In this document: positions 25,724 through 33,154 of the stretch, one piece after another
Numbering within the stretch: position 1 is the stretch's first letter
Layout: each line of letters opens with the position of its first letter
Assembly (NCBI GenBank): GCA_019307065.1
Contig: JAFDKH010000006.1
Coordinates: 42,881-106,880, forward strand
Source: Deltaproteobacteria bacterium
GTDB lineage: Bacteria; Myxococcota; B64-G9
Length of the DNA: 64,000 bases
Direction of reading: 5' to 3'
The notes under the pieces: generated by a model
Told to the model about the DNA's origin: nothing
Databases searched by the model: none
Seen by the model: the letters and a program-made list of their open reading frames with translations, nothing else
Made by a program: the position numbers and the translations under genes

Positions 25724-26683
25724 TCAACCGGCTGGAGGAATCATCTGGAAGAAGACGAACCCGCCCTTGGGGGCCGCCTGCTGGGAGCTGAAGGTCATGC
25801 CGGTTTTCTCGGCATTGATGACCGTGATACCGCCAAAATTCAAAGCTGGCAGAATGAACATGCCGTTGGCCGAGGTCTCCGTGCCGGTGGTTAGATCCGT
25901 GAATGTGGCGTTCGGGTAGTATACGCTGGTTGGTTCGTTCCAATTGCCGGACTGATCCTGGATTTTGATGACCGCTCCAGCGACCTTGTCGCTGTTTGCA
26001 TCGACGACCATGCCCATGACGAAGCCGTCGGCATCGGGGTCGATATCGGACAGCTGGCCGATTGCTGCTACCATCGCCGCCGGGACTGCCATGGCTGCCG
26101 CGCCCGAGGTACAGACTTTTTCTGAGTTTTCCAACCAGCCGACTACGCCGGTGCCGGTCGGGTAGAGCGTCCCGTCAACACCATCCCAGGCAGGATCATC
26201 GGTGATAACCACGGCGCCTAAGGCGATCGAAGTCACGTCGAAGCATGCTAGAGCAAAAGCGCCGCCGGCACCTGTGGTGGTGGCCGAGTACAAAGTCGGG
26301 TCCGAAGAGGTCAGGGCTTCCATGGGTGAAATGGCGGCAACGCCGACGCCTTCAGCGCCTGCGCCGGTCGATATATCAACGACCATGCCGGTGATGTCGA
26401 CGAAATACTTACCGGCTTCGGTGTCAACGCAGCAGTCGGTGCACGCGCCGCCCAGGCATTTTTCGCCGGTCGGACAGGGAACCGCGTCGCAGCACTCGAC
26501 TCCACCTTCGCAAACGACAACACAGGTGCCGCTTTGGCATTCTTGACCAGTCGGGCAGGGAACCTCGGTACAGCACTCGGCCCCGCCTTCGCATGTTGCT
26601 TCGCTGCTTCCGCAGTTAATGAAAGCCAGCCCTAAAGAAAGAGCTACCAGAAGAGACAATCCCACAGTCAGAGTTTTCTTCAT
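25724..26683 (-). CDS. Cys-rich lipoprotein with carboxypeptidase-regulatory-like beta domains
   Basis: Lipobox-like AFINC; CEGGAECCTEVPCPTGQECQSGTC repeats; beta-rich 'GAGGAFALACFDV' segments. Confidence 0.65.
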   Translation of the reverse strand: MKKTLTVGLSLLVALSLGLAFINCGSSEATCEGGAECCTEVPCPTGQECQSGTCVVVCEGGVECCDAVPCPTGEKCLGGACTDCCVDTEAGKYFVDITGMVVDISTGAGAEGVGVAAISPMEALTSSDPTLYSATTTGAGGAFALACFDVTSIALGAVVITDDPAWDGVDGTLYPTGTGVVGWLENSEKVCTSGAAAMAVPAAMVAAIGQLSDIDPDADGFVMGMVVDANSDKVAGAVIKIQDQSGNWNEPTSVYYPNATFTDLTTGTETSANGMFILPALNFGGITVINAEKTGMTFSSQQAAPKGGFVFFQMIPPAG

Positions 26684-26858: not shown

Positions 26859-27278
26859 GTGATCAGAATAGTACCTGCAATCTGGATTTTGTTGTTACTA
26901 GTGCTTAGCGGATGTCCCAAGAGAGAACAGCCACCCGAATCTGCCTATGATCCCAAACTGCTCGAAGCCGCCCGAGCGGCAGCCAAAGACCGTGAGCTAG
27001 ACGAGCAGGACGTAAGCCAGGAGGTTGAGCAACCTGAGGGTCCGGTGGAATGCACGCGCCAGGACGGGGGATGTAAAGCCGGTTACATCTGTTGGGATTC
27101 TCACTTCTGCAAACAGGGTTTCGACGACCAGTGCAGCCAATCCGGCGACAAGCGTTGTCACAAAGAATGTAACGAAAACAAACATTGCCCCAAAGAAATG
27201 CCCTATTGTGTAGAAAAACCAATTTTTTCAGGATCCGAGCGAGGCAAGACGGAGAAGTTTTGTGTCGAAAAAAAATAG
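26859..27278 (+). CDS. Small Cys-rich lipoprotein
   Basis: GTG start with AGGAGGTG; lipobox LSGC; Cys-rich C-terminal half. Confidence 0.7.
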   Translation: MIRIVPAIWILLLLVLSGCPKREQPPESAYDPKLLEAARAAAKDRELDEQDVSQEVEQPEGPVECTRQDGGCKAGYICWDSHFCKQGFDDQCSQSGDKRCHKECNENKHCPKEMPYCVEKPIFSGSERGKTEKFCVEKK

Positions 27279-28695
27279 CGAATCTAATAATAAAAAACAG
27301 CCCGGCCCCGCCCGAAACATCGCCAAGATACCCCAAGAGCTGAAAGATCTTTTTGGTTTTTCAGCAGCCTGTAGCTGTGGAAAGGTCCATAGTGTCGAAC
27401 TCAAAGGCGCCTCGATTCGTCCGGGTGCCATCGATGAGCTTGTCGACTGGGCTCGTCAGCTGGGTTTGGGCCGAACAGTCTGCATCGTCGTCGATCGGAA
27501 AACCCGCCAACTGGCCGGAGAGCGCGTAAAGAAACTCCTGGATAAAGATGGCTTCAAAACCAGTCTGTGCGTTGTCCCGGACGGCAAAGGCAACCGTCCC
27601 CACGCCGACCAGGCCGGCCTTGCGTATGTCGAGGCTGCTCTTGGGGGCGTGGATTTCGCGGTCGCAGTCGGTTCCGGTACGCTCAACGATCTGACCAAGC
27701 TGGCATCTTTCAGAAAAAATATTCCCTACCTGGTTGTAGCTACGGCGCCTTCAATGAACGGCTACACTTCGGCTATTGCGGCCGTGATGCTTCAGGGTGT
27801 CAAACGCACCCTGGACTGTCATCAGCCCCTGGCCGTGATCGCCGACCTGGACATCATCACCCGGGCTCCGGCCGAATTGATTGCCGCCGGGCTTGGCGAC
27901 CTGGAGTCGAAGCCCACCGCGACCGCCGACTATCGACTGAGTGGGGCAATCCGCAACGATTATTATTGTGCGGCGCCCGAGCAGGTTGTCTTACAGGCCG
28001 AAGCAAAAGTAGCCGAGGCGGCCGCTGATATCGGCATGCGCGATCCACCGGCTATAGCCTTGCTGACCGAAGCATTGTTGCTTTCGGGTATTTCGATGAA
28101 GCTGGCCGGAGTCTCGTCTCCGGCTTCGGGCGGCGAGCATCTTATCAGTCACTTTTGGGACATGAGCGCCGCGGACGAGGGTCGCGTGGAGGGCTGGCAT
28201 GGTGCTCAGGTGGGGGTCGCTACGATTGTAACAGCCACCCTCTACGAGCAACTGGGTAAGCTAAATCCTGCCAGTATCAATATCGATCAACTTGTTGCTA
28301 AAAGTCCCGGGCTGGATGAAATCGAAGCTCGGATAAAAAGCCGGCATGCTACGCGGGCCGAAGAAGTTTTCAAAGAATACAAAAAGAAGCATTTAGAACC
28401 TAAGCAGCTCAGACGCGAGCTCGGAACGATAGTAGATGGCTGGGATGATTTGTGGGCCGAAATCGGGCAATCATTGCGCCCGGGAGCCAAGGTTCGCTCG
28501 ATTTTAGCAGCCGCCCGGGCGCCAGTTAGCGTTAGTCAACTGGGACTTAGTCCGGGGCACTTGCGGCGAGCCTTTGTGGCTGCCCGCGAGATCCGCGGCA
28601 GGTATACTGTTTTAGATCTTGCCGCAGACCTTCAGATTTTGGACACCGCCGGGGAGGCAGTTTTACAGGCCTCGGGCTGCCTGGCGGAAGGATAA
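27262..28695 (+). CDS. egsA: sn-glycerol-1-phosphate dehydrogenase (AraM/EgsA family)
   Basis: VGSGTLNDLTK; ATAPSMNGYTS; AAGLGDLESKPTATADYRLS; SGISMKLAGVSSPASGGEHLISHFWDM with metal-ligand-type His; GTG start. Confidence 0.85.
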   Translation: MSKKNSESNNKKQPGPARNIAKIPQELKDLFGFSAACSCGKVHSVELKGASIRPGAIDELVDWARQLGLGRTVCIVVDRKTRQLAGERVKKLLDKDGFKTSLCVVPDGKGNRPHADQAGLAYVEAALGGVDFAVAVGSGTLNDLTKLASFRKNIPYLVVATAPSMNGYTSAIAAVMLQGVKRTLDCHQPLAVIADLDIITRAPAELIAAGLGDLESKPTATADYRLSGAIRNDYYCAAPEQVVLQAEAKVAEAAADIGMRDPPAIALLTEALLLSGISMKLAGVSSPASGGEHLISHFWDMSAADEGRVEGWHGAQVGVATIVTATLYEQLGKLNPASINIDQLVAKSPGLDEIEARIKSRHATRAEEVFKEYKKKHLEPKQLRRELGTIVDGWDDLWAEIGQSLRPGAKVRSILAAARAPVSVSQLGLSPGHLRRAFVAAREIRGRYTVLDLAADLQILDTAGEAVLQASGCLAEG

Positions 28696-28801
28696 AATTT
28701 TGTTTGCATTGCCAACTACAGAGTGTTAGCTTGCCGTTCTCAATGAATAGTTGTCTAAGGCCATTAGGCCCGGCACACAGGGCCACAGAAAGGGGATTCG
28801 C

Positions 28802-28984
28802 ATGCCTAAGAAAGAAATCCTGGTAGTAGTCAGCAAGATTAAAGAGTACATCAAATCAAAGAAGATGATGACCTCCGGTGATCTGGCCGCAGGATTGAGC
28901 ACCGAGGTATATGACCTGATCGACAAAGCCATCAAACGCTGCAAGGCTAACAAGCGCTCTACCGTTCGATCTGACGATCTCTAA
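28802..28984 (+). CDS. Putative bacterial single-histone-fold protein (60 aa)
   Basis: MPKKEILVVVSKIKEYIKSKKMMTSGDLAAGLSTEVYDLIDKAIKRCKANKRSTVRSDDL; C-terminal KRSTVRSDDL aligns without gaps to the archaeal histone GRKTIKAEDI motif (R..T....D clamp); SD AAGGGG. Confidence 0.75.
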   Translation: MPKKEILVVVSKIKEYIKSKKMMTSGDLAAGLSTEVYDLIDKAIKRCKANKRSTVRSDDL

Positions 28985-29020: not shown

Positions 29021-29704
29021 ATGGAAGAGCCGGGACTGATCCAGTCAATACTGGATTACATTGTTCAGCACGCAGACGGGCTGGGCGCAGTTGTCCTATT
29101 CTGCTCATCTCTGATCGAGTACGTCTTTCCTCCCTTTCCGGGAGACGTGATAACCTTGTTCGGCGCCTGGCTGGTGGTAAAGGGTGTCTGGAGCTTTCCG
29201 TTTGCCCTGATACTTGCGACCAGCGGCTCCCTGCTTGGGGCAGCTTTGGATTACGCTATCGGTGTTTGGCTCAGCCGCCGGCTGGACCGCTTGCCGGCCG
29301 AGAAAGATGTCAAGCGCTGGACGCCCTTAACCAAGGAAAAATACGGGCTACTGCTGGCCAAGTTCCGGCGCCACGGAGCGATCTACATTCTAATCAATCG
29401 ATTTTTACCGGGCATTCGGGCCTTTTTCTTCATAGTGGCCGGGGCCTCGCGAATGAGCTTGTGGAAAGTTCTGGTCTATGCCGCTATTTCTGCAGTAGTC
29501 TGGAATACGCTTCTGTTGGGGGCCGGCTATTCGGTCGGAGCGAACTGGGATGATTTACGCTCGCTGTTCGCCTCTTACACTACAGTCGTCTGGTGCCTGT
29601 TAGGAGTTGCTCTGGTCGGCGGGATTGGTTTTTGGCTGGTGCGCAAGCGCGGTCGGGCTGTTTTTGCGGCCCAAGCAAAGAGCGAAAGTGAAAAAGAAAA
29701 ATAG
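29021..29704 (+). CDS. DedA-family membrane protein
   Basis: EYVFPPFPGDVITLFGAWL; NRFLPGIRAFFFIVAGASRMSLWKVLVYAAISAVVWNTLLLGAGYSVG. Confidence 0.88.
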   Translation: MEEPGLIQSILDYIVQHADGLGAVVLFCSSLIEYVFPPFPGDVITLFGAWLVVKGVWSFPFALILATSGSLLGAALDYAIGVWLSRRLDRLPAEKDVKRWTPLTKEKYGLLLAKFRRHGAIYILINRFLPGIRAFFFIVAGASRMSLWKVLVYAAISAVVWNTLLLGAGYSVGANWDDLRSLFASYTTVVWCLLGVALVGGIGFWLVRKRGRAVFAAQAKSESEKEK

Positions 29705-30461
29705 CACAGCGCCGGATGAAGCGACTGACACAATTGCTTCCAACGCTTACGACCAGGCCGAATTCGTCGCCAATATCGGACACGACCTCAAGACCTATCT
29801 CAATCCGATCATCGGTTTCACCAGCGTGTTGCTGCTTGACAAGGCGGGCCTGGATTCAGATCAAGTTCATCAATTGGATCTGATTTACAGCTCGGCCCGG
29901 CAGCTGCTCAAACGGATCGATGCCATGGTGGAATTCCAACGGCTGAGCACCGGCGCGCCGGCCGGCTTAGTCGATTGGGTTTCTACCCGGGAAGTGTTTC
30001 TGGAGGTCAATCAGATATTCCAGGATTCAGCCGCCCAACGTGGAATATCTCTGGTTGACAGCCTGGAAACAGCGCCGGCCAGGCTGCGTACCAACCGGAT
30101 GATGCTGAATAGGGTGCTCAATGAACTTGTAGCGAATGCTTTGAAATTCACCGAGACCGGAACCGTGACGCTCACGGCAAAACGGGGCGAGCCTCCCGAG
30201 CCGCAAAAAGTAAGGTTGAGGTTTTGTGTTGTTGATACCGGTTCGGGGATAGGTCCGAAGCCGTTGGCGATTCTTCAGGCCAGTCTCGAAGCAGCCCCTG
30301 ATCTGGCAAGTCAGAGCTTCGCCGGTCTGGGACTGGGGCTGGCCCTGGCTCGCGAAGCAGCCAGGCGGCTCGGCGGATGGCTGGAAGTAAAAAGCACTCC
30401 TAATCAAGGCAGTACTTTTTCGCTGATTGTCGATTTTTTTGAGGATGATCTGGAAGAATGA
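29688..30461 (+). CDS. Histidine kinase (HisKA + HATPase), no recognisable sensor domain
   Basis: FVANIGHDLKTYLNPIIGFTSVLL; NELVANALKFTETG; VVDTGSGIGP; GLGLGLALAREAARRLGGWLEVKSTPNQGSTFSL; GTG start overlapping dedA. Confidence 0.82.
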   Translation: MKKKNSTAPDEATDTIASNAYDQAEFVANIGHDLKTYLNPIIGFTSVLLLDKAGLDSDQVHQLDLIYSSARQLLKRIDAMVEFQRLSTGAPAGLVDWVSTREVFLEVNQIFQDSAAQRGISLVDSLETAPARLRTNRMMLNRVLNELVANALKFTETGTVTLTAKRGEPPEPQKVRLRFCVVDTGSGIGPKPLAILQASLEAAPDLASQSFAGLGLGLALAREAARRLGGWLEVKSTPNQGSTFSLIVDFFEDDLEE

Positions 30462-31576: not shown

Positions 31577-33154
31577 ATGAAGCTAGCAAAATACACAAGC
31601 GTGATTCTGATTGGGTTGGCACTTGTCGTAGCAAACTGTTCTCCCAAAGAACGGGCCCTGCCGTGTTCTAAAGATAGCGAATGCGCTTCCGATCAGATCT
31701 GTCTCGAGGGTCAGTGCACTTTAGTTGCCTGCAAAAGCGATCAAGACTGTCAAGCGACTGAGGCATGCATTGATCATGAGTGTGTCAAAAACACTGGTTG
31801 TACGACCGACGGTCAGTGCCAAATCGGGCAAATTTGTAAAAGCGGTGAGTGCCTGACGGGATGCCGGGTCAATCGCGATTGCGAAGCCGGCCTGGTGTGT
31901 TTGCCCGAAGAAGGCGAGCATGGCCAATGCGTAGAGTGCAAAGATCAAAGCAACTGTGAGCCGGGCGAGAAATGTATCAACCATAGTTGCGCAGCTCTAT
32001 GCGACACCAGCCAGGATTGCAGCCAGGGTTACTGCGACACCGTCTTGCATGCTTGTGTCGAGTGCCTGGTAGACGACCACTGCCCGGCTACGTTAATCTG
32101 CGAGGAACGGGCTTGTATCGCAGGTTGTCGCCAGGATGCCGATTGCGGCCAGGGTGAAATCTGCGAAAACAAAGTCTGTCTGGAGGGCTGTCGCCTGAAC
32201 AGTGATTGCCCTTCGGGCGAGTGTGACCAGCAAACTAACAGCTGTGTCGATTGTTCTTCCAAAGATCAGTGCTCGATCGGTGAACTGTGTATAAACGGTA
32301 AATGTGTGTCCGGCTGCGAATCGAATCGCGATTGTCCGGACGAATGGTACTGTCTGCCCGATCAATCCCAGCATGGCGAATGCGTCGAGTGCCGCAATGA
32401 CGGCGAGTGCCGAGATCCGCTCGAACCAGTCTGCGTTGACGGTTCATGCCAGCCCGAATGCGTACACGATAACGACTGTCCGAACGCCGGACAGCAGTGT
32501 ATCGACAATCACTGCGTGACTCTGGGTTGCACCGAAGCCAGTTGTGATTCGGGCCTTTGGTGCGATGTCGGTGACGGCCAGTGCAAGCCCGGCTGTGATG
32601 AGCAATCAGACTGCCTGGAGCCTAAAACCTGTAACTACCAAACCCATGAATGCGGGCAGTATGATTGCTGTGGCGGCTGCCCGGCCGATCAGTACTGTGA
32701 TTCTGTCTCATGTGTTTGTGTAAGCGGTTGCCAGAGCGCCGAAGATTGTCCGGTCGGATTCACCTGTGAAGCCAGCGGCAAGTGTTGGTGTACAGCCAAT
32801 GCGTGCCCCGAATACACAACCTGTTCCGTAACTAGCGGGGATTGTCAGCGCGATATCTGTAGCAATGATCAAGACTGCCCTTCCGGCTGGATATGCAACT
32901 TGAACACTCAGGCCTGCGAATCGGGCGGCGGTATTGAAGAAGGCGGCATATGTTTCGCGGATGAAGATTGCGATATGGTGGCCGGCCTGCTGTGCGACAG
33001 TTCTCTTTTTTGCTTGTACTGTCAGATGGCTGATCCGAATTTCACACCAACATTCACATGTCGGCTGGAGTGTTCATTGATGAACCCGATCTGTCCCGCA
33101 GGATACGAATGTTTATATCGGCACCTGGGACTTAAGGGCCTATGTATGCCTTGA
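31577..33154 (+). CDS. Cys-rich repeat (dickkopf-like) lipoprotein
   Basis: Lipobox-like VANC; about 12 repeats of C..D.DC..G..C..G.C. Confidence 0.8.
   Translation: MKLAKYTSVILIGLALVVANCSPKERALPCSKDSECASDQICLEGQCTLVACKSDQDCQATEACIDHECVKNTGCTTDGQCQIGQICKSGECLTGCRVNRDCEAGLVCLPEEGEHGQCVECKDQSNCEPGEKCINHSCAALCDTSQDCSQGYCDTVLHACVECLVDDHCPATLICEERACIAGCRQDADCGQGEICENKVCLEGCRLNSDCPSGECDQQTNSCVDCSSKDQCSIGELCINGKCVSGCESNRDCPDEWYCLPDQSQHGECVECRNDGECRDPLEPVCVDGSCQPECVHDNDCPNAGQQCIDNHCVTLGCTEASCDSGLWCDVGDGQCKPGCDEQSDCLEPKTCNYQTHECGQYDCCGGCPADQYCDSVSCVCVSGCQSAEDCPVGFTCEASGKCWCTANACPEYTTCSVTSGDCQRDICSNDQDCPSGWICNLNTQACESGGGIEEGGICFADEDCDMVAGLLCDSSLFCLYCQMADPNFTPTFTCRLECSLMNPICPAGYECLYRHLGLKGLCMP

Follow-up and report, generated by a model that had tools for sequence, protein, structure and literature searches.

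The open reading frame at 28802–28984 of the window, by which we mean the whole 64,000-nucleotide stretch analyzed, is real and encodes a bacterial histone. We propose that this protein is a face-to-face (FtF) α3 histone, a tetrameric DNA wrapper most likely accessory to HU/IHF, and we put the probability of this reading at roughly 0.85. The analysis establishes the fold by homology and by model, the conservation of key residues, selection on the gene and the pattern at its locus. The protein is a well-supported further example of a histone type described in 2024–2025 and not a new sort; the useful addition is the pattern of presence and absence of the gene at a single site.

Results

The histone gene and its product

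The histone gene and the features discussed with it are as follows.

27262..28695, + strand: glycerol-1-phosphate-dehydrogenase-like (G1PDH-like; Fe-ADH_2) gene, the upstream conserved neighbour, separate from the histone
28787..28801, + strand: putative ribosome-binding stretch AGAAAGGGGATTCGC, directly 5′ of the histone ATG
28802..28984 (stop codon included), + strand: bacterial histone gene, assigned here to the FtF type, 60 aa, from translation, homology and an AlphaFold2 model
29021..29704, + strand: DedA/VTT-domain membrane protein, the downstream conserved neighbour
29607..30461, + strand: histidine kinase (HisKA + HATPase_c), the next conserved neighbour; its start codon is not settled and the frame listed overlaps the DedA gene

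Direct translation from the ATG at 28802 to the TAA at 28982–28984 gives 60 residues, identical to the product in an earlier note on this DNA. The Shine-Dalgarno sequence that the note had reported corresponds to the purine-rich stretch AGAAAGGGGATTCGC, and the equivalent ATG in relatives is likewise preceded by similar elements (GAAAGGGGAATCAC, GAAAGGGGTGTGGTC and GGAAAGGGGATTTAAA). Because of these elements in relatives, the ATG is favored over an alternative TTG start at 28751, which would give 77 codons. The short-form start is conserved in relatives. The predicted product has a mass of 6.7 kDa, a pI of 9.7 and a net charge of about +5.5, in keeping with the small, basic protein described before. 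Scans of the sequence around the gene for promoters and terminators were negative. The gene is single-copy in its genome, where a search for a second histone returned profile matches only at the noise level (E of 0.18 and 0.5).

The gene is under purifying selection. Comparison of the window histone gene with those of its two closest relatives gives a dN of 0.11–0.12 and a dS of about 0.9, without full saturation of dS, and a dN/dS of about 0.13.

The protein matches solved bacterial histones

When the protein was compared with PDB sequences by phmmer (E ≤ 1), four distinct sequences were matched and all of them are small prokaryotic histones. They are HLp of Leptospira perolatii (9QT0; E = 1.4e-15, 59.5 bits), HTkC (E = 3e-5) and two HBb/Bd0055 constructs (E of about 1e-4; 26 bits for HBb). 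A family profile built from 14 homologous sequences matched HLp at 1.5e-24, HBb at 9.9e-15 and HTkC at 3e-13, with only faint matches to NF-YB and HMfA. Local alignment to HLp scores 162, whereas 2000 shuffles average 24 and reach 49 at most. Considering this score and the phmmer E-value of 1.4e-15, the reading frame is not a chance one. Homologs in related genomes are 42–81% identical, and the nearest named relatives are from 'Deltaproteobacteria' and Planctomycetes metagenome-assembled genomes (MAGs).

The Pfam check against CBFD_NFYB_HMF suggested in the earlier note did not detect the protein, though the comparisons with solved bacterial histones succeeded. No histone model of Pfam or NCBIfam matched, and hmmscan gave no PF00808 match at E ≤ 1. 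The sole Pfam line was DDRGK, at an E-value of 0.03 and under its cut-off. A PF00808 search of the whole genome found no match at the histone locus and sub-threshold matches only elsewhere. Since the Pfam histone model misses a true histone here, a negative Pfam result would mislead, and this standard model overlooks proteins such as the window histone.

The AlphaFold2 monomer reached a best pLDDT of 84.6; it was run on a shallow alignment of six sequences, and one of the five models was confident at that value while the others scored 57–71. The model has α1 at residues 2–19, α2 at 28–49 and a short helical turn at 57–59. By Foldseek against the PDB, its best matches were HLp (TM 0.81, rmsd 1.5, 56% identity), then HTkC and then HBb. 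The bacterial histone fold proposed before is thus borne out by both sequence and predicted fold. It had also been stated that the chain stops where α3 begins. The C-terminus is indeed truncated, but the model is helical at 57–59, and this one-turn α3 is the truncated helix, of 3–4 residues, of prokaryotic α3 histones. As a one-turn α3 is normal for these proteins, the chain is not cut short.

The gene is present or absent at a conserved locus

The DedA gene adjoins the histone gene in all five histone-bearing genomes of the family. Four family genomes keep the order G1PDH-like, histone, DedA and histidine kinase. A fifth genome (G008) has adjacent histone, DedA and kinase genes, and no G1PDH-like gene was found at that site. 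The remaining four of the nine family genomes (G001, G005, G006 and G007) are 90–98% complete. Their G1PDH-like and DedA genes abut, separated by few bases, and a histone was found neither at this locus nor in the rest of the genome. Identity to the nearest relatives is 81% for the histone and 39–64% for the neighboring proteins. A nine-genome tree of flanking proteins (two genes) placed the histone-less genomes together, but weakly (55% support), and a DedA-only tree did not group them; either a single loss or a single gain would fit the pattern.

The conserved neighborhood raises the possibility that the histone fold serves local or regulatory DNA binding, tied for example to the adjacent membrane and lipid genes and the kinase, rather than general wrapping. 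The company of DedA and kinase genes in every histone-bearing family genome would fit such a role, as would the dispensability of the histone gene at the family level. However, four genomes keep the same neighbors without the histone, other histones of the phylum lack these neighbors in the flanks examined, and the DNA-contact residues match those of a non-specific binder. We therefore consider a local role improbable, although it fares slightly better than the other alternatives below.

The G1PDH-like protein (27262–28695) matches PF13685 and scores 199 bits against the NCBIfam G1PDH model, for which the cut-off is 413; it carries an extra C-terminal part. G1PDH is known mainly from the synthesis of archaeal lipids. 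The window protein may be AraM-like or a divergent relative, and its gene is a conserved neighbor of the DedA gene whether or not a histone gene is present. Secreted-looking cysteine-rich repeat proteins (25724–26683 and 31577–33154) flank the histone locus.

Residues of the FtF subtype

Schwab et al. 2024 (PMC11390915) distinguish, among α3 histones, FtF tetramers from bacterial dimers and from smaller groups. FtF histones conserve an R and an N, spaced by four positions, that lead into the RxTxxxxD motif, and bacterial dimers lack both (PMC11390915). These tetramer residues are numbered R48 and N52 in the FtF profile and R49 and N53 in HLp (PMC11390915, PMC12701072). The window histone has R46 and N50 at these positions, and its RxTxxxxD motif with the RD clamp is formed by R52, T54 and D59. 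None of these five residues varies among the 14 homologs, which upholds the Arg-Asp clamp and the R52, T54 and D59 conservation recognized previously.

The closest characterized sequence relative is itself an FtF histone. Crystal structures of HLp (9QT0, 9QT1 and 9QT2) show a DNA-wrapping tetramer (Hu et al. 2025, PMC12701072) whose tetramer contacts are R49, N53 and R55 with S52, T61 and F63, and whose DNA contacts are A13, S14, K15, K17, K21, T27, G29, T56 and T57 (PMC12701072). The two proteins are of the same length class (63 aa for HLp and 60 aa here) and align without gaps at an offset of three, with 32 of 58 aligned residues identical (55%). R49, N53, R55 and D62 of HLp are all identical in the window histone, so that the R/N/R set of the tetramer and the RD clamp are common to both. 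Seven of the nine DNA-contact residues are also identical, the exceptions being A13, which is V10 here, and T56, replaced conservatively by S53. The proteins differ at the remaining tetramer-contact positions, where S52, T61 and F63 of HLp are A49, D58 and L60.

The protein had been filed with Bd0055. The histone fold of that assignment holds, but the subtype does not: with the FtF residues R46 and N50 present, R52 likewise invariant and the tetramer and DNA contacts of HLp mostly kept, the filing is one branch off. HBb/Bd0055 of Bdellovibrio bacteriovorus (PDB 8CMP, 8FVX, 9EZZ and 9F0E; PMC10627809, PMC11317129) shares the histone fold, the one-turn α3, the RD clamp and the S-K motif of α1. 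It forms DNA-bending dimers (PMC10627809, PMC11317129), whereas the window histone is predicted by homology to be an FtF tetramer. A permanently dimeric histone of this kind, bending DNA as HU/IHF does, would belong to the same α3 family; the profile matches HBb strongly, and the folds match at TM 0.74–0.76. Yet HBb scores 26 bits against 59.5 for HLp, has S and D at the R46 and N50 positions and carries a one-residue insertion in loop 1. Bacterial dimers lack the R and N that are invariant here, and the dimer-type histones of the same phylum (L020, L021 and L024) are a visibly distinct set without them. A dimer is therefore also improbable, marginally more so than a local role.

Archaeal histones were compared as well. 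HTkC of Thermococcus kodakarensis (an archaeal FtF histone, PDB 9F2C, PMC11390915) has the same fold (TM 0.74), is 43% identical over the part compared and shares the Arg at the R46 position and the RxT motif, but it has a Glu in place of N50. The nucleosomal HMfA and HMfB share the histone fold and RxTxxxxD in loop 2/α3; unlike the window histone, they have longer α2 and α3 helices and assemble into hypernucleosomes, and they match the family profile very weakly (E of 0.06 and 0.49). It is highly unlikely that the gene is an archaeal contaminant or was acquired from archaea very recently. One could cite for this the FtF histones of archaea and the estimated 5.7% contamination of the assembly, but the gene order is conserved across separate assemblies of the family, and every one of the closest relatives found comes from a bacterial MAG.

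For the preferred FtF reading, we infer dimer, tetramer and DNA wrapping from the solved relative HLp. Two chains would pair head to tail through their long α2 helices, and two such dimers would join at two sites formed by the end of α2, loop 2 and the one-turn α3. R46, N50 and R52 would serve these dimer-dimer contacts, and the resulting tetramer would be ring-shaped. The ring would be wrapped by about 60 bp of DNA without sequence specificity, held by S11, K12, K14 and K18 of α1, T24 and G26 of loop 1, and S53 and T54 of loop 2.

A probable accessory role beside HU/IHF

Genes for HU/IHF (PF00216) are present in all nine family genomes, with seven in the genome of the window histone and two to seven in relatives. 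Near-complete relatives have four to seven with or without a histone, and histone-less genomes carry no extra HU copies. Codon adaptation was not informative: of 277 ordinary stretches of 60 codons, 109 reach the score of the histone gene, and ribosomal-protein genes do not stand out from ordinary genes in this genome. With codon usage uninformative, seven HU/IHF genes coexisting with the histone and four family members lacking it, there is no support for the histone being a principal or an abundant component of the nucleoid. HU is absent from Leptospira and the FtF histone of L. interrogans is essential (PMC12701072); here, in contrast, HU/IHF genes are many and some relatives are histone-less. 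The window histone is probably an accessory DNA wrapper beside HU, and it would act as neither the sole nor an essential nucleoid protein.

There is about an even chance that the DNA-wrapping FtF histone is an optional extra nucleoid protein in this HU/IHF-rich family, gained or lost singly at one fixed site. If this is true, natural histone-plus and histone-minus relatives are directly comparable. A compact FtF histone found alongside HU/IHF, in a family where some relatives lost it or never had it, would bear on the question of whether bacterial histones replace, complement or merely accompany the usual nucleoid proteins.

Other histones of the phylum

FtF histones were previously reported from Spirochaetota, Planctomycetota, Bdellovibrionota and Myxococcota (PMC11390915, PMC12701072). 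As of the HLp paper of December 2025, HBb and HLp were the only bacterial histones characterized both structurally and functionally (PMC12701072). Among 179 genomes of the phylum, 39 match the family profile, some dimer-type histones being among these matches. One genome (G037) encodes both an FtF-type and a dimer-type histone (L013 and L024). Tandem histone folds in one frame, apparently doublet histones, occur at G028:C18:525886-526263 (L020) and G044:C11:628994-629365, in frames of 269 and 244 codons, respectively. Two same-phylum histones (L019:1096-1365 and L022:891-1136, the latter on the minus strand) have long lysine-rich N-terminal tails that resemble eukaryotic H1-type tails; that of L019 includes KKKAPAKKKAPAKKK.
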